A stretch of DNA of 37,777 nucleotides from a virus. The notes under the pieces are model-generated. The model had not been told where the DNA came from, ran no database searches, and was given only the letters and a program-made list of their open reading frames with translations. The stretch spans positions 1 to 37,777 of the IMG/VR virus record IMGVR_UViG_3300015202_000026, one strand, 5' to 3'. This document shows, piece after piece, positions 4,320-27,627 of the stretch. Made by a program: the position numbers and the translations under genes. Position 1 is the first letter of the stretch. Each line of letters begins with the position of its first letter.

Positions 4320-4492
4320 TTTACTCAGGGCAGGCTGTAGTTATCCTCCCATCAAACGAAGAACTGGCGGGACAGACTGGAAAAGTATATCGGCAGCACG
4401 GCGTAAATAGAGATACGTGGCGTGTTTGGGTAGACAACCTTGCTTCATTCTACTGGGTGCGCGAAGTTGACATGCGGGTAAGAGTGAGGTAG
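4316..4492 (+). CDS. small hypothetical protein (58 aa), possible SH3/KOW-like barrel
   Basis: GTG 4316 overlaps the preceding TGA and the frame closes at TAG 4490-4492. The sequence MIYSGQAVVILPSNEELAGQ followed by TGKVYRQHG, WRVWVDN and FYWVREVDMRV resembles the strand pattern of a small SH3- or KOW-like barrel (turn-rich, G-x-A-V-V-I... G-x-V). That fold call is inference from pattern. It is the last gene of the P2 operon and is followed by a very strong terminator. Confidence 0.6.
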   Translation: MIYSGQAVVILPSNEELAGQTGKVYRQHGVNRDTWRVWVDNLASFYWVREVDMRVRVR

Positions 4493-4511
4493 AATGAAGG
4501 CGGCATGGCGC

Positions 4512-4562
4512 AAAACACAAGCCGGGGACGAGTCTCAAAAACTGGTCCCCGGCTTGTGTTTT
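4512..4562. terminator. strong bidirectional rho-independent terminator
   Basis: Perfect 18-bp arms (4512-4529 and 4545-4562) begin with AAAA on the left and end with TTTT on the right, with a 15-nt loop. The stem core is CAAGCCGGGGAC. A-run and T-run ends make it work in both directions. It sits between the plus-strand P2 operon and the convergent minus-strand gene ending at 4575. Confidence 0.95.
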
Positions 4563-4574
4563 TCTGTTTCGGTA

Positions 4575-7617: not shown

Positions 7618-7896
7618 ATGAAGATATGTATACAGGTGCGTGCGGACATACAGGCAGACGGAGATTCGTGCGCTACGCGCTACGTCATAGGCAGTTCGGC
7701 GCAATCGGACGGCGGGCCAAAAGAGGTTGACAGGGAAGTGGAACTCGCGCTGATTTCAGACAACGCGCAGGTTTGGGCCGCGCTATCGATGATAGAGCAA
7801 CACAAGGACTATACTATTACGATAGAGGATAGGCAGTACCCCGGCGAGTCGGGTGAGGTTGTGGAAATCGTCACGGTCCCTGGTAAGAGCGAGTAG
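7618..7896 (+). CDS. hypothetical phage protein
   Basis: The product is 92 residues. It starts at ATG 7618 behind AGGAGGG. A TACAAT box about 25 bases upstream could be its -10 element. The sequence is acidic, with a predicted strand-helix pattern (REVELALISDNAQVWAALSM; YTITIEDRQYPG). No family was recognised. It lies 31 bases upstream of the ParB-like gene and is probably co-transcribed with it. Confidence 0.65.
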   Translation: MKICIQVRADIQADGDSCATRYVIGSSAQSDGGPKEVDREVELALISDNAQVWAALSMIEQHKDYTITIEDRQYPGESGEVVEIVTVPGKSE

Positions 7897-7927
7897 AACG
7901 GACACCTGCGGAGGAGGCAGGCAGAAA

Positions 7928-8575
7928 ATGAGTACAAATAAGACAGAGACGGTCGGGATTGAATCTTTGACGCCGGATTCAAAAAATGCAAATATCGGTA
8001 GCGTGCGCGGAGCGGCGCTCATAGAGCATTCTCTAAGGCAGTACGGCGCAGGGCGATCCTTGCTCCTTGACAAGAATTTGAACGTTATAAGCGGCAATCA
8101 AACCCTCGACGGCGCGGCAAGCATCGGTATTGAGGATATTGTCTTAGTTCACACGCGGGGCGAACAGCTTGTAGGCGTGGTGCGCGATGACCTGGATATT
8201 GATGACCCCAAAACAAGAGAACTCGCCATTGCAGACAACAGGGCAAGTGAACTTTCCCTCACCTGGGACGGTGCGCAAATCCTCGAACTTGCCAATGAGG
8301 GCGCAGACCTATCCTACATGTTCACGGAAGCAGAGCAGGCGATACTGTTTGAGGAAGCGCCACCCCTGAACCTGGATATAGGCGATAAACCCCTCGCTGA
8401 AGCTACCCCTAGAGGTGACGCCGTGCTGCGTTATGACCTTATCTTTGAGGATCATGAGCAGCAGGAGAGGTTTCACGCGTTCCTGAGAGAGTTGAATGCA
8501 CGCTTCCCCGAAGCCGAAACCATAGCCGCCCGACTGGATATGTTCATATCCGCTACGCTTTATGAGGGGAAATGA
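7928..8575 (+). CDS. ParB/sulfiredoxin-fold nuclease-like protein paired with methyltransferase
   Basis: The product is 215 residues from ATG 7928, chosen because GGAGGAGG lies 10 bases upstream; a longer in-frame start at 7853 has no such site. Residues 10-110 show the ParB N-terminal pattern: IESLTPDSKNAN, HSLRQYGAGRSLLLDKN, the GNQTLDGA box (56-63) and IADNRASELS. The C-terminal third is acidic and helical. Its stop overlaps the methyltransferase start. Phages commonly pair such ParB-like proteins with DNA methyltransferases, where they may recognise or process DNA. The family is clear, the activity is inferred. Confidence 0.82.
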   Translation: MSTNKTETVGIESLTPDSKNANIGSVRGAALIEHSLRQYGAGRSLLLDKNLNVISGNQTLDGAASIGIEDIVLVHTRGEQLVGVVRDDLDIDDPKTRELAIADNRASELSLTWDGAQILELANEGADLSYMFTEAEQAILFEEAPPLNLDIGDKPLAEATPRGDAVLRYDLIFEDHEQQERFHAFLRELNARFPEAETIAARLDMFISATLYEGK

Positions 8576-9273
8576 TGCAGATAGTTACCGGCAACGGCCC
8601 CCTCTTCCCTGATACCCTCGCTCTAGGTGACTGCCTGGAAGTCATGCGCCGAATTCCTGACGGCTCAGTTGATATGATCCTGACTGACCCTCCATTTGGT
8701 ACTACTGCCGCGCCATGGGATTCGGTGATACCTTTTGGCGCGATGTGGCGGGAATTCAACAGGATAATAAAACCGGGCAGGGCTATCGTGCTGTTCTGTA
8801 CGCAGCCATTCACAACGACCTTGATAGCGTCTAACCTGCGCAACTACAAATACTCCTGGGTGTGGGTCAAGAACCGCACGACTGGATTTAACAACGTGAA
8901 GAATAGACCCTTAAAGGCGACGGAGGATATAGCGGTATTCAACGCGACCACCTATAACCCGCAGGATGTAATACCTTTTGGTATGGCTGTACATAACTCC
9001 ATAGGTAAACTGACACACATGCGGTGCCCGACCGCGCAAAACGGAGGGGCATACAAGAATCTTTCGTACGTCAGAGAGTTCACAAACTACCCTAATAACC
9101 TGCTTTACTTCAACTGCGTATCGAAACCAATACATAATACTCAAAAGCCGGTTGCCCTGTGTGAGTATCTAATCAAGACCTACACTAATCCCGGCGAGTT
9201 AGTGCTTGACATAACGGCGGGTAGCATGACCACGGCGGCGGCGGCTACCCGGTGCGGCAGGCGCACCGGGTAG
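8572..9273 (+). CDS. DNA adenine/cytosine-N4 methyltransferase, C-terminus interrupted
   Basis: The product is 233 residues to TAG 9271-9273. It has the D12-unrelated beta-class layout: catalytic TDPPF at residues 38-42, a central target region, HNTQKPVALCEYLIKTYTN and the SAM-loop variant LDITAGSMTTAAAA near residue 215. The usual last motif, CGRR-x-I-G-I-E-x-D-x-x-Y-F, is broken: after CGRRTG comes the TAG, but the same frame continues as PEKDITYFMKGADRVRAAERERQ to TAA 9361-9363. The stop is created inside a perfect 14-bp inverted repeat (9243-9275). The enzyme may still be active, since only the final helix is lost. Start ATG 8572 overlaps the ParB stop. Confidence 0.85.
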   Translation: MMQIVTGNGPLFPDTLALGDCLEVMRRIPDGSVDMILTDPPFGTTAAPWDSVIPFGAMWREFNRIIKPGRAIVLFCTQPFTTTLIASNLRNYKYSWVWVKNRTTGFNNVKNRPLKATEDIAVFNATTYNPQDVIPFGMAVHNSIGKLTHMRCPTAQNGGAYKNLSYVREFTNYPNNLLYFNCVSKPIHNTQKPVALCEYLIKTYTNPGELVLDITAGSMTTAAAATRCGRRTG

Positions 9274-9275
9274 CC
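9243..9275. repeat. perfect 14-bp inverted repeat inside the methyltransferase 3' end
   Basis: GGCTACCCGGTGCG (9243-9256), loop GCAGG, CGCACCGGGTAGCC (9262-9275). The right arm replaces codons expected to spell the conserved G-I-E stretch and introduces TAG 9271-9273. This is the footprint expected from quasipalindrome template switching, or from a fold-back artefact in sequencing or amplification. Confidence 0.9.
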
Positions 9276-9346
9276 CGAAAAGGACATTACGTATTTCATG
9301 AAGGGCGCTGACCGTGTGCGGGCGGCAGAGCGCGAAAGGCAGGTAA

Positions 9347-10420
9347 GTGGTGGCGCGGTTTAAGCAAATACTCGATATTGACTGCCTGGAAGCGGCACGG
9401 CAGCGCGTATCGTATGTGTGCGATCAGTTCGACTCAGTGGTGTGCATGTTCTCAGGCGGGAAGGATTCCCTTGTGACACTTCACCTTGTTGCGGATGAGT
9501 TGATAAAGCGCGGGAAAAGCCAGATCAATGCGGTTTTTCGGGATGAGGAGATCATACCTAACTGCGTGATTGATTTCGTAGACTCCTACCGACGCGCGGA
9601 CTGGGTTCAGATGGACTGGTACGCGGTGCCCATGCGTTCCACCAAGTTCGTTCTAGGGCGCGTATTCGATTACGTTCAGTGGGACGACTCGCGGGCGTGC
9701 GTGCGACCTAAACCGGAATGGGCGATAACCCTGCCGCAGGGTGACAGTCGCGTGTTCGATCAGTTCAGCATGGACGCCTTTTGTGCTGCCCGCTTTAAGG
9801 GCAAAGTCGCGTTCGTGACCGGCATTCGCGCTTCCGAATCCCTCGTGCGGTACCGTTCCTGTGTTGAAAAGCTAAACGACAACTACATCAATGCGTCCAG
9901 TGATAAGCGCGTATCCCTCGTGAAGCCTATTTATGACTGGCAGGAAAAGGACGTATTTAAGTTCCTGTATGACAGTCGCATTCCTCACTGTCCGCTGTAT
10001 GACGTGCAAAACCTGGCCGGGGAAGATTTTCGGGTGGCAACGCCCCTGCACACCGAAAGCGCCAAAGACTTTGAACGTTGGCGGGCGCTTGATCCTGATT
10101 ACTACGCCCGTGTCACAAAGATATTCCCCGAAATGAGACTGCAAGAGCGTTACTGGAAGGAACTGGACAGGGCAGGACTAAAGGAGCGTTACGGGCAGTC
10201 CTACGCAGGCATACGCGCATATATAGAGGAACAGATAACAGACGAAAATCAAAAGCGGGTGGCACTGCAGCAGTTTCAGGAGGTGGCAAGGCGGGAGGCA
10301 TTAGACCCCGGCGCGTATCCGCCGGAAAACCTGTACAGGCACATCCTTTCCGGTGCGTACAAACGGGAACTGATGCCCCTTAGACGCGCGGAGAGGAAGC
10401 AAATTGCAAAGATCGGGTGA
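9347..10420 (+). CDS. IbrA-like PAPS-reductase-family (PP-loop) protein
   Basis: The product is 357 residues from GTG 9347. The PP-loop ATP-binding motif SGGKDS is at residues 36-41 and is followed by AVFRDEEIIP. KPIYDWQEKDVFKFLYDSRIPHCPLYD matches the PAPS-reductase/IbrA-type domain. IbrA-like proteins are found with ParB-like IbrB partners in phages and in E. coli, where the pair activates eib genes. An IbrB-like protein is encoded at 11589. The start lies inside the read-through frame of the methyltransferase, so the two genes were coupled. A 3' domain of about 100 residues is helical and basic. The family is clear; the substrate (sulfur or nucleotide chemistry on DNA or tRNA) is unknown. 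Confidence 0.85.
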   Translation: MVARFKQILDIDCLEAARQRVSYVCDQFDSVVCMFSGGKDSLVTLHLVADELIKRGKSQINAVFRDEEIIPNCVIDFVDSYRRADWVQMDWYAVPMRSTKFVLGRVFDYVQWDDSRACVRPKPEWAITLPQGDSRVFDQFSMDAFCAARFKGKVAFVTGIRASESLVRYRSCVEKLNDNYINASSDKRVSLVKPIYDWQEKDVFKFLYDSRIPHCPLYDVQNLAGEDFRVATPLHTESAKDFERWRALDPDYYARVTKIFPEMRLQERYWKELDRAGLKERYGQSYAGIRAYIEEQITDENQKRVALQQFQEVARREALDPGAYPPENLYRHILSGAYKRELMPLRRAERKQIAKIG

Positions 10421-11588: not shown

Positions 11589-12227
11589 ATGAATACTGCG
11601 TCAGCGCCCTTCGTGGTGCCAAACGATCCTATTTCACAGATTGTATGGAGGCACGTTTCCAGTCTCAAGATGAACGCTTATAATCCAAACATTGTTCAGG
11701 AACCGGAACTAAAACTACTCGAATACTCAATCATCAAGAGCGGGTGGACGCAAGCGATTTTGATTGCCTCGGAGTCCGGTCTGATAATTGACGGGTTTCA
11801 CCGCTACATGCTGTCAAAGGAAAGCTCGGCCTTAAAAAAGAAGTATCAGGGATACGTACCTTGCGTGCTTATGAATATAACGGAAGCTGACGCAATGATG
11901 CTGACTGTGCGTATGAACCGAGCGAAGGGCACTCACGCGGCGATACGTATGTCAAGCCTGGTGAAATCGCTCATAGATCAATTCCACGTAAGTCGGGATG
12001 AAATTTGCGTTCAGACGGGCGCAGATTTAGCGGAGGTGGAACTACTTTATCAGGACTCCATCTTTCATAGTCGCGGGCTAAAGAATTACAGGTACTCAGC
12101 CGCGTGGGTTCCTGGTGAATCCGGGGCGCGGGGCGCGACTTTCAACAAGGGCTATCACAACGCAGGTACGGCGGTTACGGGAAAGCGGTCGGTTATGAAG
12201 GAGGATAAGCCACGCCATGAAGGTTAA
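11589..12227 (+). CDS. IbrB-like ParB-domain protein
   Basis: The product is 212 residues from ATG 11589, with GAGGGAGAGGG just upstream. The ParB/Srx N-terminal domain shows SSLKMNAYNPN, LLEYSIIKSGWTQAILIA and the IIDGFHRYMLSKE box (residues 66-78). NRAKGTHAAIRM and a predicted helix-turn-helix (SRDEICVQTGADLAEVELL) follow. This is the layout of IbrB-type proteins that partner IbrA PAPS-reductase-family proteins, one of which lies at 9347. Its end overlaps the GNAT start by 11 bases. A joint function with the IbrA-like protein is likely but its chemistry is unknown. Confidence 0.82.
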   Translation: MNTASAPFVVPNDPISQIVWRHVSSLKMNAYNPNIVQEPELKLLEYSIIKSGWTQAILIASESGLIIDGFHRYMLSKESSALKKKYQGYVPCVLMNITEADAMMLTVRMNRAKGTHAAIRMSSLVKSLIDQFHVSRDEICVQTGADLAEVELLYQDSIFHSRGLKNYRYSAAWVPGESGARGATFNKGYHNAGTAVTGKRSVMKEDKPRHEG

Positions 12228-12621: not shown

Positions 12622-13327
12622 CCCCGGCCCTGATTGCGGCAACAAGTTCGCGGCCCCTGGATGACAAAAAAGATACCCCTGCCGATACCCTTTTGGCGGG
12701 GTATTCCTCTATCTGAGATATTGAAAGATTGCCGGAAAATGGAAATGAGATTCCGTTTTCCAAATCCTCCACGAGTTTTTCAAAGGTCAATCTGCGGGCG
12801 CGCGTGCGGGTGTGCGTACCCGTGGGCGGGCAGGCGGGCGCGTGACGTGCGGGCGCGGGCGCTGGCGCATCCGTGAGTCCTTCAACTACTGCGGTAAACT
12901 TCGCCGGCTCACTTACTTCGTTCGATATTTCCTGGTTACGGAAACGCCCGTGCAATAGCATGTGACATCGGAAGCATAGCGAAAAGTAACCTATATGCAG
13001 GCCAAAAGGTATCCGGTAGTCCTCCGAATGTGCATCAATACGGACTCCGTCCCGGTACTGGTTGACCGAACATAGGTCACAGGTAACGGGCGGAGTCCTT
13101 TCCCCCGTCCGGTATTGTTCCTTTAGCCAATTAAATGCCCGCTGACGTTGATTCGCTGAAAACCCGTTATAACTGCGCATGACGCGGTTCCTTTCGTGTG
13201 CGTGGCGATTAGACGGCAGGAAACGGTATTCCCGTGTATGGCGAACGGAGAAATTTACACTCCACCGTTCGCCATACTTTCCGTGCGGAAACATTTCCCG
13301 TAAACGGGTCCCAATCCCGCGTGCCAT
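12578..13327 (-). CDS. HNH endonuclease-like protein
   Basis: The product is 249 residues if started at ATG 13327; a TTG further upstream is possible and no strong ribosome binding site decides. The middle holds the HNH/zinc layout: TCDLCSVNQYRDGVRIDAHSED, then GLHIGYFSLCFRCHMLLHGRF, with C-x2-C pairs bracketing the His cluster. It is followed by a Pro/Ala/Arg-Thr low-complexity linker encoded by very GC-rich DNA near 12790-12870, and a C-terminal helical region. It ends the minus-strand amidoligase operon. It may be a packaging-associated or mobile nuclease. Confidence 0.75.
   Translation of the reverse strand: MARGIGTRLREMFPHGKYGERWSVNFSVRHTREYRFLPSNRHAHERNRVMRSYNGFSANQRQRAFNWLKEQYRTGERTPPVTCDLCSVNQYRDGVRIDAHSEDYRIPFGLHIGYFSLCFRCHMLLHGRFRNQEISNEVSEPAKFTAVVEGLTDAPAPAPARHAPACPPTGTHTRTRARRLTFEKLVEDLENGISFPFSGNLSISQIEEYPAKRVSAGVSFLSSRGRELVAAIRAGVTYSQLPSETEPGE
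13278..13291. repeat. dispersed palindrome copy 4 (inside HNH coding sequence)
   Basis: TTTCCGTGCGGAAA at 13278-13291 lies within the HNH gene, where the minus strand reads F-P-H-G-K. It is one of two copies inside a coding region, the other being at 17132. Its retention in coding sequence argues for a DNA-level role rather than only a transcript hairpin. Confidence 0.85.
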
Positions 13328-13349
13328 GATCCATCGCAACGCACGTACG

Positions 13350-13592
13350 TCATTTTTTGTCTGCCTGTAACCCCGAATCGATGCACGCTTGCACGAATTT
13401 ACGTACAAATTCCTGCACCGTTGATTCGTTGTCAAGTACAAATTCGTAATGAGAACGCGGCAAATAGATTGTGCATTGTAGCATTTCTTCCCCTGGAAAT
13501 TCCGGTTTCCGCCCTGCGCCGGGGCGAAAACCGCCCCGGTTTTCCTTTTTACGGCCCTTTTTGGCCGTTCCTACGGTAGTTTTACCATTCAA
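13350..13592 (-). CDS. small basic protein, possible ribbon-helix-helix regulator
   Basis: The product is 80 residues. The N-terminus is very basic with a GGFRPGAGRKPEF stretch like those of small phage DNA-binding proteins. The C-terminus (QCTIYLPRSHYEFVLDN, then VQEFVRKFVQAC) has the strand-helix-helix pattern of ribbon-helix-helix repressors. ATG 13592 lies inside the last codons of the cyclotransferase gene, so translation is coupled. It is a candidate autoregulator of the minus-strand block; whether it binds the CCTAACCGATAGG sites is a guess. Confidence 0.6.
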   Translation of the reverse strand: MNGKTTVGTAKKGRKKENRGGFRPGAGRKPEFPGEEMLQCTIYLPRSHYEFVLDNESTVQEFVRKFVQACIDSGLQADKK

Positions 13593-14358
13593 CGGTATAT
13601 GTCCTTACTTTCCCCGGATTCGTGTCTGTCCGGTCATCGTAGGGCGATTCGCCTGAGTCAATAAACGGGTCCGGTTCGTCATTATAGAAGGAGTCCGGCT
13701 CCGCAGGGTCATCAAACAGCCGGATGTATTCCTCTTCCGTCAACGCGGGCAGGATAACAGGTTTCTTCGCCGCTTTCGGGTACCAGTATGACTCCTCTTT
13801 ATGGCGTGTATAGGACTGGCGTATAGCGGATTCCCGTGCGGCAATAAGGCATTCCACCGGGAGTCCGAAGTCCTGGTATCCCTCCATGATTCCGCCGTAA
13901 TAGGTATCGGAAGGGGTACTAATACCTGCACCGTTCATTACATAGAGCATAACACGGTTAATGCTACCGTCCGGGAATGTCACGTCTATGTATTCTTTAC
14001 GATACATTCCGCGTAATTGGTCACCTTCACGGTATCCTTCGTACCTGTCAAGTGTGAATTCACATTCCGCCGTTATGCGCCATATACCCGCCTGCAAGCT
14101 ATCCCCAGGGGATGGGACTACGTTCGCCACTCCACGGAATTCTAGTACCCAGTCCGGTACCTCTACTGCGCAAACGGGAGTCGCGGCAGGACAGCGATAG
14201 GACATCTGATACTTGCTCAAATTTGACCCATACGCAAGGTAATAGGCGCACGTAGGGTCTAGCACCGCCTTAGACCGTTTCCCGCACGTGCGTGCCTCAT
14301 ATCGGGCAACAAAAGCGTTTAGTGTTGACTGAGAAACGGTCTTTTTATTCTTCTTCAT
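13582..14358 (-). CDS. gamma-glutamylcyclotransferase/AIG2-like protein
   Basis: The product is 258 residues from ATG 14358 (AAAGGA 11 bases upstream); a longer upstream frame lacks a good start. The family signature YLAYGSNLSKYQM is at residues 40-52, with YGSNL forming the substrate-binding loop. GVANVVPSPGDSLQAGIWRIT follows, then FTLDRYEGYREG with Glu107 in the position of the catalytic acid. The C-terminal ~70 residues are acidic. Such enzymes cyclise gamma-glutamyl amides and release 5-oxoproline. It lies directly downstream of the amidoligase, so it probably edits or removes gamma-linked groups that the ligase adds. The chemistry is known for the family; the pairing here is inference. 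Confidence 0.85.
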   Translation of the reverse strand: MKKNKKTVSQSTLNAFVARYEARTCGKRSKAVLDPTCAYYLAYGSNLSKYQMSYRCPAATPVCAVEVPDWVLEFRGVANVVPSPGDSLQAGIWRITAECEFTLDRYEGYREGDQLRGMYRKEYIDVTFPDGSINRVMLYVMNGAGISTPSDTYYGGIMEGYQDFGLPVECLIAARESAIRQSYTRHKEESYWYPKAAKKPVILPALTEEEYIRLFDDPAEPDSFYNDEPDPFIDSGESPYDDRTDTNPGKVRTYTVEW

Positions 14359-14405
14359 GTTCGGTATATTCCTTTGTCTAAAAAGTCTGATTCGTACAGG
14401 CGTGC

Positions 14406-14442
14406 ATACCTCCGCCGTGCCATAAAAACACGGCGGAGGTAT
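14406..14442 (-). other. 14-bp intercistronic hairpin between amidoligase and cyclotransferase
   Basis: Perfect arms ATACCTCCGCCGTG (14406-14419) and CACGGCGGAGGTAT (14429-14442) enclose a 9-nt loop rich in A (T on the minus strand). It lies 16 bases past the amidoligase stop and about 50 bases before the cyclotransferase start. There is no T-run after the stem on the minus strand. It could attenuate or protect the transcript and set the ratio of the two enzymes. Confidence 0.8.
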
Positions 14443-14458
14443 TAAGAGTCCCCTTTCG

Positions 14459-16993
14459 TTACGGGAGAAGTTCGGCCAATTCCCGCGCCGTTTCTTCCGT
14501 TTGATTCCGGTCACGTTCGCGGAAATACCCTTCTAAAAGGTTATTGGCGTATACGGCGCCTGCGGATGTTGCATACATGGAAAAGTAGGGAGATGTTGCG
14601 AAAAATTCCCGGTATTGTTCCGGTGTATACCCCGGATGACTTGCCGTGAAGGTATCTTGCCTACGTTGGAATAAATTCTCCGTAGCAGAAACATCCTGGT
14701 CTAATTCCTGCCATGCAATCACTCCACCTGCGTACCTTGCGGCGTGATTCACTAATAAATCCCCGTGAATTTCCCGGTATCGATTCCATTCCCCGTCCGT
14801 GCGTTCTACTCCGTCATAATCGCCATGTCCGGCATTATAGGCAGTATACTGGTACGTGTAGGGAAGATCAACGGTGGAAAGTTCGGGTAGTTCCGGTTCC
14901 CCTTGCAAGTCTGTGTTTACAGTTCCGTTAATACCTACATATCCGTAAAGTACGTTTATACTGTGTGTTTGCGCGAATACGGGTAGACCTAATCCCCTGC
15001 ACATGTCATCCGCGTGCATAGATCCATTTGTATTTACGTTTATACGTGCATCAGACCGTTGCCTATCGGTCATTCGATTCCATATTTGCAAGCGCCGTTC
15101 CAGTTCTTCTGCTGGTAACCGTCCAATTTCGTTCGCAGGTAACGGTGCGATGCAAGCCGGAACGGTGGACTCTACTGTTTCCTCCACCAAAGACTCCGTA
15201 ACCGTAGTCCGCAAATTAAGCCGGTATTGTTCGTCAGGCGCATTGTTGGTTCCGTAAAAATAGGCGCGAAATAGTTCATTATGCTGAAATAGTCCGGTGT
15301 AAAATTCGTCAGAACGATTCGCCAATGCGGAATGTATACTTCTCCTGCGCATGTAAAAAAGATCTTCCGTACGTTGGGCGCGAATCAATATTTCCTGCGA
15401 ATTATTTGTTGGATGTGACGCGGATTCTGTTCGCAAGAGCATACGGAAGCGGGCGTGTTCCGTAGCGGTGCGCGCCACTCCGTCCGGCGATTGTTCGTCA
15501 GCGTAGGTTACTGGCAGAATATAATTCTCTTCCCCTAATGGGTACGCATAAGGGTTATTATCCGGGAGCGTACCTTCCGCGTATGCTACCTGATAGGATG
15601 TCATACCAAGCGTAGAGAGTCCCAGCCGTGTACAAAAATCGATTGACATTATGGCATAATCCCAGTTCCAATTATCAATTAGGGATACCCGTATGGCAAA
15701 ACGGGCGTCATCGTCCATAGCGTACCATTGTGCACGCCGTTGGATTCGCATTTCCTCTGTAAGTTGATCCCGTTGTATGGGCGTCAAATAGCCGATTCCC
15801 GTAAGTGGATTCCGGGGAATTTCCCCGCTTGCAGTGATTACCTGCACTTCAGTCATTCCCGTAGTGGAAAGTCCCAGATATGTGCAAAGTTCCGTTATGG
15901 ATACTGCCCGTCCCTCTAAAAAATCGGTGACTTCATTTACTGCGCGAATTCGCGATTCTTGTGTCATCAGGTACCAGGAGTTGCGCCGTGCAACCGCTTG
16001 CAGTTCCGTTATGGATTCGCGTTGACCGGGAGTCAATAGGCCTATAACCGTTACGCTAATTTCCTGCGTTTCCGGGACAGCAGGTACGGGAGTCGTTACC
16101 GGCGCGTTTCGGTTGACTCTACGGCGAACGGGACGGGCAGGAACCAATTGGCTGCGAGTCTCTTCTGCATTCGCGGAATCGGTTGACGCGTTGACTTCTT
16201 TTTCCCGCTTAATCAGGTATTTACGCGTATCCGTGTCAAGGCCAATTCGCATTAGAAGCTTCGAAAATTTAAGTGTGACTCCTTCTTGCCAGGGTTTAAT
16301 GTCCGGGGATTCGCAGGCGTCACGGATTAGAGCATCCAGGAACTTAATCCAGGAGGTAATTTTAAGGCCGTCCGTAGAACCGGAATGCTGACGGAATTCA
16401 AACGTTCCGTGCGTATCGAATGCCGCACGGGCATTGATTTTATGATATCGTTCGGATGCGCCGGTAGTGCCGTCATATAATCCCCGGCAAAATTCATAGT
16501 GATTCTCTTCCGTGCGGATACGGTCTAGACACTGAGTACCCGTTTCTCCTACGCAAACAAGGGAACGGGCGTAATAGGCATTATTCCCCCTGCGTGACTC
16601 CGGCATAATCCTATCAATTAGCGTTTCGGAACGTGCGTATGCCGCGCAAACATTGCGCCGTTGACGGATAGTAGTATCGCGCATTCCGAAATGAACGTGG
16701 ATTCCACATTTCGAATTCACCTTTGCGCCTAATCGATTCAGGACTTCGCACGCCGTCAAAATTTGCTTGATTCCGTCTTCCCCGGAAAAGATCGGAGAAA
16801 CCAATTCGAATGAATGATAATTCCCGTCTAAGGAAGAATCCGTTACTACTTTCCAGTGTGGAGTCGTCCGGTGCGTATATCCTTCGTATTTGCAAGCGAT
16901 ACCAGGGGTATTATTCAATTCCCGTGCTAGTTCGTGCGAATCGATGTTATAAGCTTCAATTTCCACGCCGAAAGTACGTCCCGAAAGTGCCAT
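14459..16993 (-). CDS. amidoligase (Amidoligase_2 family) with repeat-containing C-terminal half
   Basis: The product is 844 residues from ATG 16993, preceded by AGGAG at 17004-17008; a TTG at 17020 is weaker. Residues 1-230 match the COOH-NH2 ligase fold related to glutamine synthetase: FGVEIEAYN (8-16), TDSSL (51-55), SFELVSP (61-67), CGIHVHFG (96-103) and GTFEFRQHSGS (196-206). After a low-complexity linker (to ~310), unit A (318-393) and unit B (402-477) are clear repeats, and a third weaker unit C lies at 624-684. A second repeat pair lies at 494-580 and 712-810. Amidoligases ligate amines to carboxylates using ATP. The target, protein or small molecule, is unknown. The C-terminal half has no recognised family. 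Confidence 0.85.
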   Translation of the reverse strand: MALSGRTFGVEIEAYNIDSHELARELNNTPGIACKYEGYTHRTTPHWKVVTDSSLDGNYHSFELVSPIFSGEDGIKQILTACEVLNRLGAKVNSKCGIHVHFGMRDTTIRQRRNVCAAYARSETLIDRIMPESRRGNNAYYARSLVCVGETGTQCLDRIRTEENHYEFCRGLYDGTTGASERYHKINARAAFDTHGTFEFRQHSGSTDGLKITSWIKFLDALIRDACESPDIKPWQEGVTLKFSKLLMRIGLDTDTRKYLIKREKEVNASTDSANAEETRSQLVPARPVRRRVNRNAPVTTPVPAVPETQEISVTVIGLLTPGQRESITELQAVARRNSWYLMTQESRIRAVNEVTDFLEGRAVSITELCTYLGLSTTGMTEVQVITASGEIPRNPLTGIGYLTPIQRDQLTEEMRIQRRAQWYAMDDDARFAIRVSLIDNWNWDYAIMSIDFCTRLGLSTLGMTSYQVAYAEGTLPDNNPYAYPLGEENYILPVTYADEQSPDGVARTATEHARFRMLLRTESASHPTNNSQEILIRAQRTEDLFYMRRRSIHSALANRSDEFYTGLFQHNELFRAYFYGTNNAPDEQYRLNLRTTVTESLVEETVESTVPACIAPLPANEIGRLPAEELERRLQIWNRMTDRQRSDARINVNTNGSMHADDMCRGLGLPVFAQTHSINVLYGYVGINGTVNTDLQGEPELPELSTVDLPYTYQYTAYNAGHGDYDGVERTDGEWNRYREIHGDLLVNHAARYAGGVIAWQELDQDVSATENLFQRRQDTFTASHPGYTPEQYREFFATSPYFSMYATSAGAVYANNLLEGYFRERDRNQTEETARELAELLP

Positions 16994-17062
16994 TACAATC
17001 ATTCTCCTTTTCTCAGTCAAACGGTAGAGTGTAGAACCGATAGGGGATATATTCAGTCAACC

Positions 17063-18146: not shown

Positions 18147-18217
18147 CCTATCGGATAGGGTACTGACATTATGGGGCATATCGGTTTGATTGTCAAGGTA
18201 CTAATCAAACCGATATG
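18147..18217 (-). promoter_or_regulatory. minus-strand promoter, operator and 15-bp inverted repeat opposite terS
   Basis: On the minus strand TTGACA (18196-18191), 17-nt spacer and CATAAT (18173-18168) form a strong promoter for the zinc-knuckle gene. CCTATCCGATAGG (18159-18147) is the most symmetric operator copy, just after the start point. The promoter is embedded in a perfect inverted repeat, CATATCGGTTTGATT (18177-18191) and AATCAAACCGATATG (18203-18217). Each arm holds an ACCGATA half-site. The repeat also abuts the terS ribosome binding site (GCGGAGG, 18217-18223), so one regulator could control both directions. Confidence 0.8.
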
Positions 18218-18232
18218 CGGAGGATTCTAGCC

Positions 18233-18892
18233 GTGCCGAACTTAGAAAATATCATAATAGACGAAAATGGGAGTCCGATTCCATTAGGCAAAATTGCCAC
18301 CATGGGGAACCCGAATCTCTGTACATTAGACAGGGTAAACAAAATAATCGCCTGCTTGCGAAATGGTAATACCAGAGTCGTAGCAGCCAAGTGGACTGGT
18401 ATTACAGATGCTTGCCTGTCCCAATGGGTGAACCATGGACTACCTATTAATGCTGAAATTAGTCACAAAGATTTTTTACAAAGAGTTAACATAGCGGAGT
18501 CAGAAGCTGAAATGGAAATGGTGTCCGCACTACGAAAAGCGGCAAACGGTTTTACTGTACGTAAGAGCATGACGAAGAGCAGAACTATATTTAAGAACCG
18601 TGTTGAGGTTATGCCTAATGGAGTTCGTGTAATAGAACCGATTGCACTACAGGAAATTACAAAAGAGGAATCAGAAGAAACTGTTTTTGATTATCGGGCA
18701 GCAGTGGAGTATCTGAAACGGCGCAAACCTGATTCTTGGTCTGATAGGAATAAGATAGAATTGACTGGGCCGGACGGGGGACCATTGCAAATTGACGCCG
18801 CTGCGCGTATTGAGGCATCGAAGGAATTGGAACAGTGGAGGAATGAACAAAATACGAATCTGCTTACGATTCTGGTACCTCCGGAAGAATAA
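18233..18892 (+). CDS. terS: terminase small subunit
   Basis: The product is 219 residues from GTG 18233, preceded by GCGGAGG with nine-base spacing; an in-frame ATG at 18215 lies inside that site and is rejected. Residues 25-70 contain a helix-turn-helix-like segment (VVAAKWTGITDACLSQWVNHG). The C-terminal part has DYRAAVEYLKRRKPDSWSDR followed by KIELTGPDGGPL, the hallmark tail of many small terminases. TerS binds the packaging site and recruits TerL. Here terL is unusually far away, separated by a 1.9-kb non-coding region. Assignment rests on tail motif, HTH and position. Confidence 0.85.
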   Translation: MPNLENIIIDENGSPIPLGKIATMGNPNLCTLDRVNKIIACLRNGNTRVVAAKWTGITDACLSQWVNHGLPINAEISHKDFLQRVNIAESEAEMEMVSALRKAANGFTVRKSMTKSRTIFKNRVEVMPNGVRVIEPIALQEITKEESEETVFDYRAAVEYLKRRKPDSWSDRNKIELTGPDGGPLQIDAAARIEASKELEQWRNEQNTNLLTILVPPEE

Positions 18893-18911
18893 GAATTGCA
18901 TCCGCAATTAG

Positions 18912-18925
18912 TTTCCGCACGGAAA
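18912..18925. repeat. dispersed palindrome copy 6
   Basis: TTTCCGCACGGAAA lies 20 bases after the terS stop, in the opposite orientation (CA centre) to most copies. No T-run follows. Confidence 0.85.
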
Positions 18926-18936
18926 GTCTACGATAC

Positions 18937-18967
18937 CTCTGTATGGCCGTAGGAGCCACATACAGAG
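18937..18967 (+). other. hairpin after terS
   Basis: Arms CTCTGTATG (18937-18945) and CATACAGAG (18959-18967) are perfect, and inner GGC/GCC bases can extend the stem. It is followed by GTTTAT, so it could be a weak terminator for terS. A further repeat, TTTAACGCA (18978-18986) with TGCGTTAAA (19019-19027), comes next. Confidence 0.6.
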
Positions 18968-19111
18968 AGTTTATCCGTTTAACGCATGAATACACATATT
19001 AGGCCCGTTTACTTCGTGTGCGTTAAATTTGATCTTAAATCTGCGTCATTTGTCTACGTGTTTTAGCACCATTTTAGCGCGTTTGTAATGAATGAACTTT
19101 ATCTGATTTCA

Positions 19112-19148
19112 GGGATTACGTAGACTCCGGTGTACGTAATCCCTTTTT
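19112..19148 (+). terminator. rho-independent terminator
   Basis: GGGATTACGTA (19112-19122), loop of ten, TACGTAATCCC (19133-19143), then TTTTT. This is a strong plus-strand terminator about 220 bases beyond terS. It implies that whatever lies downstream needs its own promoter. Confidence 0.9.
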
Positions 19149-19403
19149 CGTGAGTCATTCAGGTAGACCGACCTATACACTTTAGCCAGCAATGCCTTTA
19201 CTTCTGTTAAGGGAAAATGCCTAAAAACGGGGACGGAGGTATCGATTCCGGCGAATCTTTTTAGACGGTGGATTCGGGTATGGGCGGAATAGGTACAATT
19301 TTGCCTACCTATTTTCCGGGTATCTGGCAGACGGTCATTTTAGCAGTTCTGTTATACCGTTTAACACTTTAATTATGGTCACACCGTAGGAACATACACA
19401 GGA

Positions 19404-19477
19404 TTGACGAAAACATATCATTTTTTGATATATTTGCCTTGTCTACTTGACATGTCTACTAGAAAATATGCTAAAAA
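19404..19477 (+). promoter_or_regulatory. AT-rich segment with two possible promoters
   Basis: TTGACG at 19404 has TATATT at 19429 (19-nt spacing), and TTGACA at 19447 has weak -10 candidates at 19470-19477. ATATCA-TTTTTT-TGATAT forms a small dyad between them. The stretch 19390-19495 is clearly AT-rich compared with its surroundings. It could be a promoter for the structured region downstream, or an easily melted element of a replication origin. Confidence 0.35.
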
Positions 19478-19489
19478 ATAAGCGTCTTT

Positions 19490-20700
19490 AAAATTACCGG
19501 CAAGTCCTAATTACTATACAGCTTTGTTCTTAACTAAGAAACAAACTGTATAGGCCGGAACTATACAAAACTTCTGCCGTGGAGATGTTGCAAGTATAGG
19601 GGGGTCAAACTTCCACTTCGTTCCGTTCTTCCCCCTATACGTATGGGCACCGTTTGCAACGTTGTTTCCCCGTGCGAACTACAAACTTTTTTCATCCCCC
19701 TTACTGATTCATTAGCTGTATTGTGCGGCTGGGTTCTTTGCAGTACATTGTAGATTGTTAAGTGATTCCTACTTACGCATGTGCGTGCGCGAGTCGGCAG
19801 GCCTAGTGCCGATGGCCGTGTAACGTTGGACTCCACCTTGCACACTCCTGCAAAGAACCTCCCCTATCAATACCGTATATGTCTATATCGATTCGGATAG
19901 TCCCCGGTTGCTCACCTTGATTCACTAGCATGATTTTTATTTAACGTGCTTTCGCACGGGACCGGGTTCCTACCTATTGGTTACTGATTCACGCGTATAC
20001 GTGCGCGCGCGTGCCATACACGGCCATACATCAGGATACCTTCATACCAGACGGCAGAAAAGTTTCCGTGCGGAAAGACCAACTTTAGTACCAATATTCT
20101 AATCCACCTTCACTATTGGTACTAACCGTCTACGATGACCGTACACGAAGCGAACAGCGACCAAACCCGTAATCATCTATCAATTCCCGTTTACTGCGCA
20201 GGAACGCCTCGTGGTGCCGGGAAAGGGTATTCAGTACGAATAGCAGGGCAAGGTTCCCGCGTCTGGTAGCATGATACTTCCCCGGTATCCTGGCACTATT
20301 CACCGTTCCCGCGTGTCCGCTAATTCCCTTCCCGCATACCTTCCATTAGACACCGTAACCGACCTTCCAACACGTCCGGCATTTCGCCGTACTGTTACAC
20401 GTTTACACACGTCTACTTGCACCATATCAGTTAACCGTATACCTGTTGGACCTCTGGCAGAAACTTCACCGCAACGCTATACTCGCTCTGACTCTGTGTG
20501 GTTACTGCCAGTCAATTTACAGTAGTAAAGAGATGTGTTAGTCTTACTGGTTGTGCCTGCCACTGGTATGACCGCCCGTCCAATAAGTCGATGTTTTGGC
20601 GGTTGTGTGGGGGATCAACTGATTTATACTGCGAGGATATTTGAAGGACCGCCAAAACTATTCCCTCCGATTCACACTCCGACTAAATTCTAAGGGGTGA
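19490..20700 (+). ncRNA. candidate large structured non-coding RNA between terS and terL
   Basis: No reading frame here has both a ribosome binding site and protein-like composition. Instead there is a chain of long perfect inverted repeats: 19514-19553 (8 bp, extended by TTTGTT/AAACAA), 19594-19603 with 19631-19640 (10 bp) nested in 19587-19593 with 19654-19660, 19732-19743 with 19848-19859 (12 bp) enclosing 19794-19799/19807-19812, a CGTGC-TTTC-GCACG hairpin at 19945-19958, 20085-20096 with 20114-20125 (12 bp) inside AGACGG 20049-20054/CCGTCT 20126-20131, 20218-20259 (nested), 20454-20511 and 20593-20603 with 20648-20658 (11 bp). Nested stems and multi-branch layout suggest RNA. The strand and the ends are tentative. 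Confidence 0.5.
20063..20076. repeat. dispersed palindrome copy 7 (within the structured region)
   Basis: TTTCCGTGCGGAAA lies inside the AGACGG...CCGTCT enclosing stem, beside the 12-bp stem 20085-20125. In an RNA it would form one arm of a three-way junction. Confidence 0.85.
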
Positions 20701-20731
20701 TTAAACTTTCTCCACCGTTTCACACTCCGAC
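20671..20731. repeat. 13-bp direct repeat upstream of terL
   Basis: TTCACACTCCGAC occurs at 20671-20683 and 20719-20731, 48 bases apart, in the last 160 bases before terL. Direct repeats near terminase genes are often terminase recognition sites. No other function is apparent. Confidence 0.6.
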
Positions 20732-20776
20732 CGTTTTTCAGTACAACTCAAAACTTTTAATGTCTGTTCGCTTATC

Positions 20777-20809
20777 TTTCCGCACGGAAACTTAGGTTTG
20801 TGGTATTCT
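20777..20809 (+). promoter_or_regulatory. palindrome copy 8 overlapping a possible terL promoter
   Basis: TTTCCGCACGGAAA (20777-20790) is followed at 20801 by TG-G-TATTCT, an extended -10 box (20804-20809). The palindrome covers the region where a -35 box would lie, with no TTGACA present. This placement suggests an operator or activator site controlling late transcription. The terL start follows 18 bases downstream of the box. Confidence 0.5.
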
Positions 20810-20827
20810 GTAATACGGAGGGTGGAT

Positions 20828-22384
20828 ATGTCCGTAACGATGCAGAGTTCTGCGGTTCCTGAAAAAGTAGATTTGGCTGCCATTGCATTATCCGAACTAA
20901 AACGGCAAACTGAAATAGCTAAGTGTTTACTTGATCCGGTTTACTTCTGTCATCATTACTGTGTTATTGATGATGCGCAGGGGCATGGAGGTGGTAGCGG
21001 CCAAATGCCGTTCAAGCTGTGGCCTGCTCAGAAGGCTGTTATGTGGGGGTTCATGAAGGACCGCCTGACAATCATACTAAAAGCGCGGCAGTTAGGTATA
21101 TCCTGGATGTGCTGCGTGTATGCGGTGTGGCATTGTATATATTCTCCTGGTAAAAAAGTGCTTGTATATTCGCAGGGGCAAATAGAGTCAAACGAACTTA
21201 TCCGGCGCATGGATGCGATTTATACCCGTCTGCCTGACTGGATGAAGGCAGACTTGCCGAAGCTGACAAAATCCAATACGGAAGTGCTGGAGTTCAGTAA
21301 CGGTTCGAGTATTCAATCCCTCCCCTCCACAAAGAAAGCGGGGCGGTCATTTACCGCCTCACTTATCATCATGGATGAAGCTGCGCACTTGCAGTGGGCG
21401 CGGGACTTGTACAAGGCTATGTCACCTACCATTGACGCTGGCGGGCAGCTCATTATGCTTTCCTCTGCAAACGGTATAGGCAATCTGTTTCATGAGATAT
21501 GGTCTAAAGCTGTTAATAAGCTAAATGACTTCCGCACGGTATTCCTTCCCTGGTATGCCCGCCCTGAGCGTACGAAAGCCTGGTACGAAAAACTCCACAC
21601 TACCTACCCGGACCCGATGGACGTTTTTCAAGAGTACCCCGCGAACCCGAATGAGGCATTCGTATCGTCAGGGCGTGTGCGCTTCAAGCCGGACTGGATT
21701 CTTGCGAACGCGCATAATGTGGCGAAACCTCATGAACTGATACCGGAATCGGAATGGCCGGACGCTTTATACGCTATTGAAGGACTCGTGCTGTATAAGA
21801 AGCCGGAACCGGGCCGTCAGTACGTTATCGGGGCGGATGTTGCGGAAGGACTGGTAACGGGGGACTTCTCTACATTTATCGTGCTAGATAAGGTTTCGTG
21901 GGAAGAAGTTGCAAATTATCACGGTCATTGCGAACCCGACACTTTTGCCGGTTTTCTTATGATTGGATCGCAGGTATTTAACCGTTCAGGTATTATGGTA
22001 GAACGTAATAACCACGGACACGCTGTACTTACCGCATTTAAGGTGGCAAACTTCGTGCGTAATGTAATGTTGGGGCCGGACGGAAAACAGGGCTTTCATA
22101 CGAACGTGAAGACGAAGCCGACGATGATTAGCCTGATTGCTGAAAGCCTGCGAGACAATCTGATTACTATACGAACTGGCGGCACGCTTGATGAATGCCA
22201 GATTTACAAAATCAACGATGACGGCACTACTTCCGCGCCTGCTGGTAATCATGATGATAGGGTAATGGCGCTAGGGCTTGCGCTTGAGGCCGCGCGTTCG
22301 GTAGTGGAACACGATAAACCTGCGCTTACCCCTGCGGACCTTTTGGCTGGGGTGAGTATGATACACAGAAACAGGGCCGCGTAG
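20828..22384 (+). CDS. terL: terminase large subunit
   Basis: The product is 518 residues from ATG 20828 (GGAGGG just upstream). The ATPase part shows Walker A KARQLGIS (85-92) and Walker B LIIMDEAAH (179-187) followed by the coupling motif SSANG (212-216). The nuclease part has VIGADVAEG with Asp346 (residues 333-346), VERNNHG with Glu392 and HDDRVMALGLAL (475-486), the expected metal-binding acids. It is the packaging motor and genome-cutting enzyme, acting at the portal with TerS. Length is typical. The upstream frame from 20798 contains no better start. Confidence 0.96.
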   Translation: MSVTMQSSAVPEKVDLAAIALSELKRQTEIAKCLLDPVYFCHHYCVIDDAQGHGGGSGQMPFKLWPAQKAVMWGFMKDRLTIILKARQLGISWMCCVYAVWHCIYSPGKKVLVYSQGQIESNELIRRMDAIYTRLPDWMKADLPKLTKSNTEVLEFSNGSSIQSLPSTKKAGRSFTASLIIMDEAAHLQWARDLYKAMSPTIDAGGQLIMLSSANGIGNLFHEIWSKAVNKLNDFRTVFLPWYARPERTKAWYEKLHTTYPDPMDVFQEYPANPNEAFVSSGRVRFKPDWILANAHNVAKPHELIPESEWPDALYAIEGLVLYKKPEPGRQYVIGADVAEGLVTGDFSTFIVLDKVSWEEVANYHGHCEPDTFAGFLMIGSQVFNRSGIMVERNNHGHAVLTAFKVANFVRNVMLGPDGKQGFHTNVKTKPTMISLIAESLRDNLITIRTGGTLDECQIYKINDDGTTSAPAGNHDDRVMALGLALEAARSVVEHDKPALTPADLLAGVSMIHRNRAA

Positions 22385-22436
22385 CGGTATAATGCCTGCA
22401 TACAATTGTAACGCAAGTAGAGGAAATAACCCGGAT

Positions 22437-23978
22437 ATGGCAGATCAAAGAAGTAGCTCAGGGAGTAAGCCTGCAAGTAATCCTACACCTCTGCCTATCG
22501 GGCCGGTAGGAAAGAGGCAGTCTCAGCCCGGCGTCTGGACTCCGTATGCGGAGGGCGGTATTGGTATTATTCCGCGCCGTAATATCGCGGCGCCCTCACT
22601 TTTGCGCACCTCTGCTGCCTTGCAGTCCATGGCGTCCACTTCACCCCTACGACTGCTTTCTATGCTGATAGACTCGGATGTGGACGCCTCTCTTGCCGCC
22701 GATAACATCCTCACCCTTACTACAGGGGACCTGAAAATTATCGGGATGGAGTATAGTCACACTATATCCGAAGGCGCGCCGGACGCGGGCGCTACGGCAC
22801 TCCTTGACAAGTTCTTTGCCGATTTACCCCCTGAAATCGGCGGGCTAGAGGGCTTACAATCCATCCTTACCCTGATGATCCTGCTTACCGGAATGGCCGC
22901 ACTTGAAGCAGTTCCAGGCGAACCCCTTACAGGACTTACCCGCGCATGGCCGGTTGACCCTCTGTCGCTTTTGCTTACGCGGCCTGACAAATCCGCAGAT
23001 GTGGAAGTACGCCAAAAGCAAGTGAACTTTTTGGGCGGGGAGAAAGATGACCCGCTATACCCCGGCTACATCCTACTGAACCCGGAGCGGTTCTTCTGGA
23101 AACCCTACCAGCCCATCGTAGATGATCCGTACGGTAGGCCGTCATTTGGTCCCGCAATCAGTGAAATACTTTGCATGATACATATGCTTCAAGCGTTGCG
23201 TGATTGTATAGATCATACGGCATGGCCGCGCGGTGTTGTAGAGGTGGACACTGAAGGGCTTTATAACATAGCCGTGCAGCAGATGGGTTTTATAGACACA
23301 CCGACAGACCCCGCCGCGACAAACTGGGTACTGACACAGTTTGCAAACTTTACAAGCACGATGAAGCAGGTAAAATCTGATGACTGGATTGTGATGGGGG
23401 CCGGCAGTAAAACAGTTATGATGCAGGGTGGCACCTTTGCCGGGCTTGACGCGATGATAAAGAATCTTCAATCGCGGATTGTGCGTGGCCTGAAACAGAT
23501 GCCTGTTATGATGGGGAGTTCGGAGGGTTCGACAGAGGGGCATACGTCTGTTCAGTGGCAGGTGTATGCCCGACGGCTTGAAATGGTCCGTGCCGCCGCA
23601 CTTGTTCCGATCCTGAAAGCTGCGAACCTGCATTTTAGACTCCTGGGCCTTCCGTTCGTTGCGGTTGCGAAATTCCAGCCTATCCGCACTACGGACGCGC
23701 TTGTAGAAGCGCAAACCGAAGCAATGCGCCTGAAAAACGAAGCGATTAAAATGCTTCTGCGCTGGAGTAATAACGATAGTTCCTGCCTGGCGATTACAGG
23801 CAACGCGCCTGCCACAGCCGCGCCGGACCTGCCGACTCTTACTGCTGAGGAAGCCAAAGAGGTGCTTATGCTTGTGGCGGGTATGCCTCCTCCGCTCACC
23901 GGTAACGCGGGAGGAGGAGCGCCGATAGGTGGCGGAGACAACACGGCGCAGGATAACGCGGAGGCGAAAGCTACGTAG
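22437..23978 (+). CDS. portal protein
   Basis: The product is 513 residues from ATG 22437, with AGAGGA about a dozen bases upstream; an in-frame ATG at 22392, eight bases after terL, is possible. The N-terminus is Ser/Pro-rich. The core shows alternating helices and strands, and a segment PRGVVEVDTEGLY and VMMGSSEGSTEGHTSVQWQVYARRLEMVRAA typical of dodecameric portals of siphoviruses. A Gly/Ala-rich low-complexity tail ends the protein. It lies directly after terL and before the protease, the standard portal position. It forms the ring through which DNA enters. Confidence 0.88.
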   Translation: MADQRSSSGSKPASNPTPLPIGPVGKRQSQPGVWTPYAEGGIGIIPRRNIAAPSLLRTSAALQSMASTSPLRLLSMLIDSDVDASLAADNILTLTTGDLKIIGMEYSHTISEGAPDAGATALLDKFFADLPPEIGGLEGLQSILTLMILLTGMAALEAVPGEPLTGLTRAWPVDPLSLLLTRPDKSADVEVRQKQVNFLGGEKDDPLYPGYILLNPERFFWKPYQPIVDDPYGRPSFGPAISEILCMIHMLQALRDCIDHTAWPRGVVEVDTEGLYNIAVQQMGFIDTPTDPAATNWVLTQFANFTSTMKQVKSDDWIVMGAGSKTVMMQGGTFAGLDAMIKNLQSRIVRGLKQMPVMMGSSEGSTEGHTSVQWQVYARRLEMVRAAALVPILKAANLHFRLLGLPFVAVAKFQPIRTTDALVEAQTEAMRLKNEAIKMLLRWSNNDSSCLAITGNAPATAAPDLPTLTAEEAKEVLMLVAGMPPPLTGNAGGGAPIGGGDNTAQDNAEAKAT

Positions 23979-26141: not shown

Positions 26142-26522
26142 ATGCCACAGAACAAGTCAGACATACGTTATTCGGGGGAAGGAATCGTTTCTCTTGCGAA
26201 CGGTTCTCAATCCCTGGATAACGTTACACTTCTCACATCCGGCACCGTTTACAACGCGATGGATATTTTAGGCATCGTGACCGCTACCGGCAAGTACGCG
26301 CTACTGGCTCCGGGGGCGGGGGACGGAACGCAAAACGCGGCTGCGATCAATTACAACCGCGTGGATGCCACTGCGGGGGACGTGTTGAAATGCGCGGTTG
26401 TAAGCCGTTATGCGGAAGTTAATGCGAGAGAACTAAACTACTACGCGTACACCGGCCCGCAGATCATCACGCTTACCAGTCAGCTAAAAGCGCTCGGCAT
26501 CCTTATCCGCCCTGCCGTTTAG
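26142..26522 (+). CDS. head decoration protein (lambda gpD-like)
   Basis: The product is 126 residues from ATG 26142, with GAGAGG eight to nine bases upstream. It is beta-rich and neutral: GEGIVSLANGSQSLDNVTLL, YNAMDILGIVTATGKYALLAPGAGDGTQ and VLKCAVVSRYAEVNA match the gpD/HDPD style in which trimers cap the expanded capsid. Position between protease-scaffold and the gpE-type capsid gene is that of lambda D. It should stabilise the head after expansion. No extra domain is present. Confidence 0.85.
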   Translation: MPQNKSDIRYSGEGIVSLANGSQSLDNVTLLTSGTVYNAMDILGIVTATGKYALLAPGAGDGTQNAAAINYNRVDATAGDVLKCAVVSRYAEVNARELNYYAYTGPQIITLTSQLKALGILIRPAV

Positions 26523-26598
26523 GTCACTCTTTCGCCACTCTGACTTTAGAGGGCATTTACCCCGGCGCGTAAGTCAAACGCGAATGGAGTTTTACGTT

Positions 26599-27627
26599 AT
26601 GGCAACTATGGATGTATTTTTGGCTGATGCTTTTACGATGAGTTCTCTCGTTGCAAAAGTGGATCAGGTGCCCTTTACGCCGGGGGCGGCGGGTAAGCTG
26701 AATATCTTCAAAGAGACGGGTATTTACACAACCTCCTTTGAGATTGAGGAGAGGGCGGGAACGCTTGCGCTCATCCCGAATACTCCGCGCGGCGGCGTTC
26801 CGACTCAGAACTCCCGTGACCAGCGGAAGGTCCGACTGTTCAAGCCCGCCCACCTGCCGATACGCGATCATATTCAGGCGGATGAGTTCCAAAACAAAAG
26901 GGCGTTCGGCTCTCAGACTGACCTGCAAATGGCCGAAGTCGAAGTCAATACGCGAATGGTTCGGATGTCGCGTATTATGGATACAACGCTTGAGTTTCAG
27001 CGTATCAGCGCGCTGCAAGGCATCATCCTAGACTCTGACGGATCGACGGTTATCTACAACCTGTTCAATGAATTTGGTGTCACGCAAACCATCGTTGACT
27101 TCCTGCTTGGGACTTCCACTACGGATGTTTTGTCTACCTGCGAGAACGTCCGTGCGGCCATTCAGGACACGTTAGGTGCGGACGGTTCCGAAGACATTGA
27201 CGTGGTGGCGTTTGTCGGAAAAACGTTCTTTCAGCGCTTTATTTCTCACCCAAACGTGAAGCTGACCTACCAGTATTACCAGACGATTCAGCAGAATCTT
27301 AACCCTCTGCAGCAAGACCTCCGCTACACCGGGTTCAAGTTCGGCGGAATCACCTTCAAGGTATACCGGTCAAGCGTGCTAACCACTCCCTTTGTCCCGG
27401 TTAGTCAGGGAACAGCATTCCCTGTGAACGTGGAGGATATTTACGAAACCTTCTACGCGCCTGCTGACTACATGGAGACGGCGAACACGGAAGGGCGACC
27501 GCGGTACGTAAAAATGGTCCCGGACCCGTCCGGCTATAATCGGTTCTGGGAAATTGAGATGCAGTCAAACCCGCTTTCGATGTGCAAGCGGCCCGCCGTT
27601 CTAATATCTCTTATCACATCCAACTAG
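26599..27627 (+). CDS. major capsid protein (lambda gpE family)
   Basis: The product is 342 residues from ATG 26599; GGAG at 26586-26589 supports this over ATG 26584. MDVFLADAFTMSSLVAKVDQ, IFKETGIYTTSFEIEERAGTL, the RKVRLFKPAHLPIRDHIQADE stretch and DVVAFVGKTFFQRFISHPNV match the phage capsid E family. The C-terminus YVKMVPDPSGYNRFWEIEMQSNPL is also characteristic. Its length is typical of the family. It forms the HK97-fold shell with the decoration protein encoded just upstream. Confidence 0.93.
   Translation: MATMDVFLADAFTMSSLVAKVDQVPFTPGAAGKLNIFKETGIYTTSFEIEERAGTLALIPNTPRGGVPTQNSRDQRKVRLFKPAHLPIRDHIQADEFQNKRAFGSQTDLQMAEVEVNTRMVRMSRIMDTTLEFQRISALQGIILDSDGSTVIYNLFNEFGVTQTIVDFLLGTSTTDVLSTCENVRAAIQDTLGADGSEDIDVVAFVGKTFFQRFISHPNVKLTYQYYQTIQQNLNPLQQDLRYTGFKFGGITFKVYRSSVLTTPFVPVSQGTAFPVNVEDIYETFYAPADYMETANTEGRPRYVKMVPDPSGYNRFWEIEMQSNPLSMCKRPAVLISLITSN

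Follow-up and report, generated by a model that had tools for sequence, protein, structure and literature searches.

The terminase locus

IMG/VR record IMGVR_UViG_3300015202_000026 is a linear contig of 37,777 bases whose last reading frame exits the right end; it is called the window here. Its + strand carries a small terminase gene, terS (18215-18892), and a large terminase gene, terL (open reading frame 20798-22384, likely coding part 20828-22384), beyond which lie the genes for the portal (22392-23978), a head-decoration protein (26142-26522) and the major capsid protein (MCP, 26584-27627). The most likely start of terL is the ATG at 20828, with the ribosome-binding site GGAGGG upstream at 20817-20822. 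The two terminase genes of phages usually adjoin or overlap, and are presumably co-expressed. Here 1.9 kb lies between them (18893-20827, referred to below as the block), and both codon usage and comparison with Pfam and PHROG agree with an earlier note on this DNA that it holds no credible protein gene, nor is there a pseudogene. The three open reading frames of at least 60 aa in the gap have codon-usage scores of -0.107, -0.019 and +0.037, as against +0.086 to +0.261 for confident genes, and a six-frame read-through searched against Pfam and PHROG gave no trace better than E 0.02. A pseudogene was rejected because the gap has neither codon bias nor protein-family homology, a homing-endonuclease remnant because it has no protein trace, and an intron because there is no split gene and no Rfam match. 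The tetranucleotide correlation of the block with the rest of the window is 0.458, the lowest among all 1.6-kb stretches.

Several gene groups elsewhere in the window are worth recording. A SLOG-family (YspA-like) protein and a macro-domain protein are encoded close together (880-1281 and 1856-2338), a pair with a possible role in nucleotide signalling or counter-defence. Genes for a ParB-like protein, a DNA methyltransferase and a PAPS-reductase-like protein stand in a row at 7853-10420, with a second ParB-like gene downstream at 11589-12227; in Arthrobacter phages a PAPS reductase gene is likewise found beside a ParB-like gene. On the minus strand, within 13582-17020, an amidoligase-like gene adjoins a gamma-glutamylcyclotransferase-like gene.

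Relatives of the phage and of the block

Scanning IMG/VR with one protein at a time (terL, MCP or portal) brought up no close relative. Alignment-based scans gave eight closest TerL relatives at 46-56% identity, namely L390, L391/L211, L392/L212, L393, L394, an Isosphaeraceae MAG (L291) and two prophages of Herpetosiphon aurantiacus DSM 785 (L292 and L293). In all eight the terS-terL distance is between -96 and +39 nt, so that the genes overlap or lie within 39 nt of each other. Across 159 TerL relatives the largest gap, taken as the distance to the nearest upstream + strand open reading frame of at least 60 aa, is 443 nt and the median is 8. Because no TerL relative seen has such a gap, the spacer is specific to this phage within the sample. 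The Herpetosiphon prophages and the Isosphaeraceae MAG JARLIH010000150 share the TerL family (51-54% identity) and the TerS C-terminal motif with the record, but their terS and terL overlap, without a spacer. That motif, ELEQWRNEQ, is the one carried by the TerS proteins whose genes overlap terL in relatives; compared with these, the TerS of the record stops short of the last tail residues, and its TerL is extended at the N-terminus. A side observation from one Herpetosiphon prophage region is a set of CRISPR direct repeats (CRISPR-DR30, L293:723-984), about 4.4 kb upstream of terS.

The TerL family is that of Herpetosiphon-type prophages, whereas the portal-to-MCP segment resembles L013 (71% MCP), whose terL differs and which shows no sign of the block. 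The L013 set and the Herpetosiphon-type prophage set do not carry each other's genes. The record is therefore a mosaic, its capsid genes coming from another lineage than its terL; a mosaic junction is seen at about 22390, between terL and the portal-to-MCP segment.

Searches with the block itself gave no homologue. Its DNA has no similarity beyond chance in INPHARED or PLSDB, there were just chance matches of 24-56 nt in 400 genomes sampled from the Herpetosiphon phylum, and nhmmer over 466 fetched loci found no homologue. With a covariance model of the domain around a 13-bp helix described below (R1), the window alone scored meaningfully in 86 sources, and nothing did in 158 genomes; the collections searched may omit records very near the window, and near relatives of the block could exist.

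The mosaic record, the lack of a block homologue in the searched collections and the lowest tetranucleotide correlation all speak for a decaying insert of little function, left by mosaic exchange or by a dead mobile element. We regard this as improbable. There is no protein remnant, phage genomes seldom keep 5% useless DNA, and the excess of perfect inverted repeats together with the recurrent motifs (both described below) argues that the block is maintained.

The terminator and the AT-rich segment

A terminator previously proposed at 19112-19148 is indeed present on the + strand, as an intrinsic terminator of terS at 19111-19150: a 12-bp stem AGGGATTACGTA/TACGTAATCCCT (19111-19122/19133-19144) is followed by TTTTT. 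The segment at 19390-19495, put forward as AT-rich and as a possible source of a promoter, is 72% AT and contains two GTCTAC copies 13 nt apart, but a strong consensus promoter was not found in it; either a promoter or an unwinding region is possible there. Apart from the terS terminator, scans of the block for promoters and 3' terminators gave only chance-level results, and this counts against a discrete RNA.

Inverted repeats

The inverted repeats named in the earlier note, at 19514-19553, 19594-19640, 19732-19859, 20085-20125, 20454-20511 and 20593-20658, were all recovered. For perfect repeats of 10 bp or more whose loops do not exceed 110 nt the count is five, compared with 0.15 in shuffled sequences (0/100), and without the terS terminator four, compared with 0.14 (0/200 dinucleotide shuffles). 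With loops of 111-600 nt, repeats of 9 bp or more number six, where dinucleotide shuffles give 1.87 (0/200), and for 7-bp repeats the enrichment is just about twofold. The shuffle test overstates the rarity of these repeats, since comparison with 2637 real phage segments of equal length (1.6 kb) puts the block in the top 0.8% for inverted repeats, high but not unique. Among them is a perfect 12-bp stem on the + strand, TTAGTACCAATA/TATTGGTACTAA, at 20085-20125, with a loop of 17. The loops of the excess repeats measure 17-104 nt, most of them longer than ordinary dimer-binding sites allow.

Predicted RNA fold

The + strand of 19490-20062 has a predicted folding energy of -175.1 kcal/mol and a z of -3.70, with 0/80 shuffles as stable, and the minus strand has a z of -1.79; folding beyond composition, with a strand preference, is a feature of large structured non-coding RNAs. 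The same test was applied to Herpetosiphon RNase P RNA, with approximate bounds (z -2.5 sense and -0.7 on the other strand), and to three 573-nt windows of Herpetosiphon 16S rRNA (sense z -2.6, -1.4 and +0.1), the 5' third giving -2.6 sense and -1.0 on the other strand. By this yardstick the folding energy of the block is on a level with that of real RNAs, and the contrast between its strands is similar too.

The single-sequence prediction has a composite hairpin of 5+8+5+4 bp at 19497-19558, with pair probabilities of 0.84-1.0, and next to it a folded domain at 19572-20059, both on the + strand. The domain is closed by a 9-bp helix TTCTGCCGT/ACGGCAGAA (19572-19580/20051-20059), and within it are a 10+11-bp hairpin (19584-19663), a 10-bp helix (19669-19678/19951-19960) and a 13-bp helix enclosing three hairpins (19731-19743/19848-19860). 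The nested predicted helices of 9-13 bp have mean pair probabilities of 0.88-0.98, and in this model a pseudoknot could arise through an 11-bp complement, 19812-19822/20017-20027. The repeats of a three-way junction that had been proposed around AGACGG/CCGTCT are there, but their bases are shared with the competing 9-bp helix 19572-19580/20051-20059. A second and weaker + strand fold is predicted at 20444-20658, with an 8-bp closing helix (20444-20451/20578-20585) and the stems CTGGCAG/CTGCCAG and a 12-bp stem (20593-20604/20647-20658). The C-rich stretch at 20140-20440 on the + strand has no folding signal (z +0.2 on + and +1.3 on - for 20150-20450).

The suggestion of a large structured RNA thus gains from a fold that prefers the + strand, but not from long-range pairing. 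The long-range helices of high probability seemed compelling until shuffles gave similar numbers: high-probability pairs spanning more than 100 nt are not above the shuffled sequences, 18/80 of which reach the value, and this argues against a discrete RNA. Three further points go against the RNA reading. Other intergenic spots fold with a lower z than the block, 13201-13600 on the minus strand reaching -7.0; the perfect 10-13-bp helices of the block are longer than those in the 16S and RNase P controls; and its + strand is pyrimidine-rich, unlike the + strand genes of the record.

The minus-strand signal at 13201-13600 is the strongest in the part scanned, with a long hairpin near 13250 inside it, and the region of about 4401-4800 comes next with a z of -6.7. 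At 4512-4562 a 22-bp inverted repeat has the look of a terminator that works in both directions.

Comparison with known RNA families

Large phage-borne RNAs of the ROOL and GOLLD kind are the obvious comparison, and ROOL is often encoded near tRNA islands. The proposal that the block might be kin to either is not supported, since no covariance-model match was found at E values up to 10 and there is no tRNA nearby, nor any in the window. The ROOL model (RF03087, 574 positions) gave no match on either strand of the window, and 14 control genomes were also without a true positive; the GOLLD model (RF02032), which covers the conserved 3' region, gave none either, its control matches being weak and none over the cut-off. 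With no true positive in the control genomes, these absences rest on the Rfam models as such; the same tool, cmscan, picked up CRISPR repeats and a tRNA in relatives. For the other Rfam families, OLE and group I and II introns among them, the window had no match that reached the gathering threshold, and the sub-threshold matches were just RAGATH-30 and isrA, at chance level (E 3.8-9.7).

ROOL RNAs are found in phages and prophages, have no protein partner gene, and are several hundred nt long with long-range helices and a possible pseudoknot (PMC12286853). The block is like them in its phage setting, the absence of a protein partner gene, its size, its predicted long-range helices and its possible pseudoknot; it differs in having no match to the model, no tRNA and no homologues, and in that its fold comes from a single sequence. 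GOLLD is a large phage-borne RNA of unknown function (PMC12286853), and the predicted RNA of the block would likewise be large and phage-borne, although it matches no GOLLD model and has no tRNA nearby. The block may encode a new class of large structured phage RNA, at least about 560 nt long and related to neither GOLLD nor ROOL, acquired as a module and expressed apart from terS and terL; with a fold modelled on one sequence, this is possible but less likely than not.

Short motifs and a dispersed palindrome

Some short sequences recur in the block far more often than expected. GTCTAC/GTAGAC occurs in 8 copies, where the rest of the window predicts 0.67 and shuffles give 0.95; CTATAC/GTATAG occurs in 7, five of them inside 19514-19640 and in both orientations. 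Six hexamers occur at least 7 times, compared with 0.58 in shuffles (0/200), and the 72% AT segment sits between the hexamer clusters. Recurrent short motifs beside an AT-rich segment are a feature of an origin or iteron array. Judged by sequence, the hexamers look like DNA-binding sites; they go against a discrete RNA and keep alive an explanation at the level of DNA. There are also two + strand copies of TTCACACTCC, a sequence not found elsewhere in the window, at 20671 and 20719 (span 20671-20731), 48 nt apart and each followed by GAC.

A 14-bp palindrome, TTTCCGYRCGGAAA, is dispersed over the whole record, with 10 exact copies and one with a single mismatch; these 11 sites, at 736, 3509, 10461, 13278, 17132, 18912, 20063, 20777, 24266, 27628 and 32655, compare with 0.69 expected at up to 2 mismatches. 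Most of the 11 stand just past gene ends or in intergenic DNA; eight are outside the block, on gene boundaries or close to them. The three inside it are exact copies: TTTCCGCACGGAAA at 18912-18925, 20 nt past the terS stop; TTTCCGTGCGGAAA at 20063-20076, 4 nt past the predicted folded domain; and TTTCCGCACGGAAA again at 20777-20790, 37 nt upstream of terL. The form TTTCCGNNCGGAAA is absent from L013, L211, L212 and the Herpetosiphon records, and a scan of IMG/VR for the 18-bp form gave no match. The 14-bp core is scattered in IMG/VR, and among the matches listed it is single save in one contig, which has two copies 43 nt apart.

Such a distribution suggests a phage-wide regulator. Mycobacteriophage stoperators are repressor sites of asymmetric motif dispersed over the genome (PMC9283540), and the sites described here resemble them as a short intergenic motif repeated across the record, with three copies in the block, but differ in being a 14-bp palindrome. 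No repressor was identified in the window. A second operator-like motif, CCTAACCGATAGGGTA, is found at 817, 3548 and 10501, at each of which it stands between TTGACA and a -10-like hexamer; a variant, CCTATCGGATAGGGTA, is at 18147.

The palindrome also bears on the origin of the block. An assembly chimera would be a natural concern for a single metagenomic record with no near record seen and a stretch of atypical composition. We consider it very improbable: the terS and terL that flank the block carry motifs that adjoin in relatives, and because its three exact palindrome copies recur in the rest of the contig the block is probably native.

These motifs could also be the substance of a cis-acting DNA region, such as a replication origin, a packaging-recognition site or a multi-site regulatory array, in which the motifs, the palindromes and the AT-rich segment would bind proteins or unwind, and the inverted repeats would act as DNA. 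The eight GTCTAC and seven CTATAC copies, the hexamer excess and the three palindromes all speak for it, and an AT-rich segment between motif clusters is the anatomy of an origin or regulatory array. Yet 10-12-bp arms around loops of 27-104 nt are atypical for protein dyads, folding differs between the strands, and the relatives package their DNA with no such region separating terS from terL. Among the proteins scanned, which were part of the open reading frames of an incomplete record, none was recognised as a replication initiator, helicase or polymerase. We take this explanation to be slightly less likely than a folded-RNA module, though nearly as likely.

Proposed organization of the terS-terL region

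Our tentative preference, to which we give a probability of roughly 0.4, is that the block acts as a non-coding module confined to this lineage, one that uncouples terS and terL and would give a folded RNA of about 560 nt if transcribed from the + strand. The sequence shows an intrinsic terminator behind terS, no protein gene in the remainder of the block and no such spacer in the relatives. Because the terminator should end the terS transcript, a + strand late operon led by terL would need its own promoter, most simply placed inside the block. Transcription of the + strand would then produce a folded RNA with its main domain at about 19497-20059 and a weaker one at 20444-20658, and this could be a non-coding RNA in its own right, or else the structured leader of a transcript of the terL operon. 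A putative phage regulator would bind the palindromes at 18912, 20063 and 20777 as well as its other sites in the genome, and would control the terS-terL unit together with the rest of the genome.

What is new here, as far as sequence comparison goes, is a spacer at a junction where the eight closest TerL relatives have overlapping or abutting genes. Terminase genes kept apart by a terminator and by 1.9 kb of non-coding DNA rich in repeats would mean either an unusual regulation of packaging or a large RNA encoded there. If the RNA is real, it would be one more among the very few large ornate RNAs of phages, whose functions are unknown.
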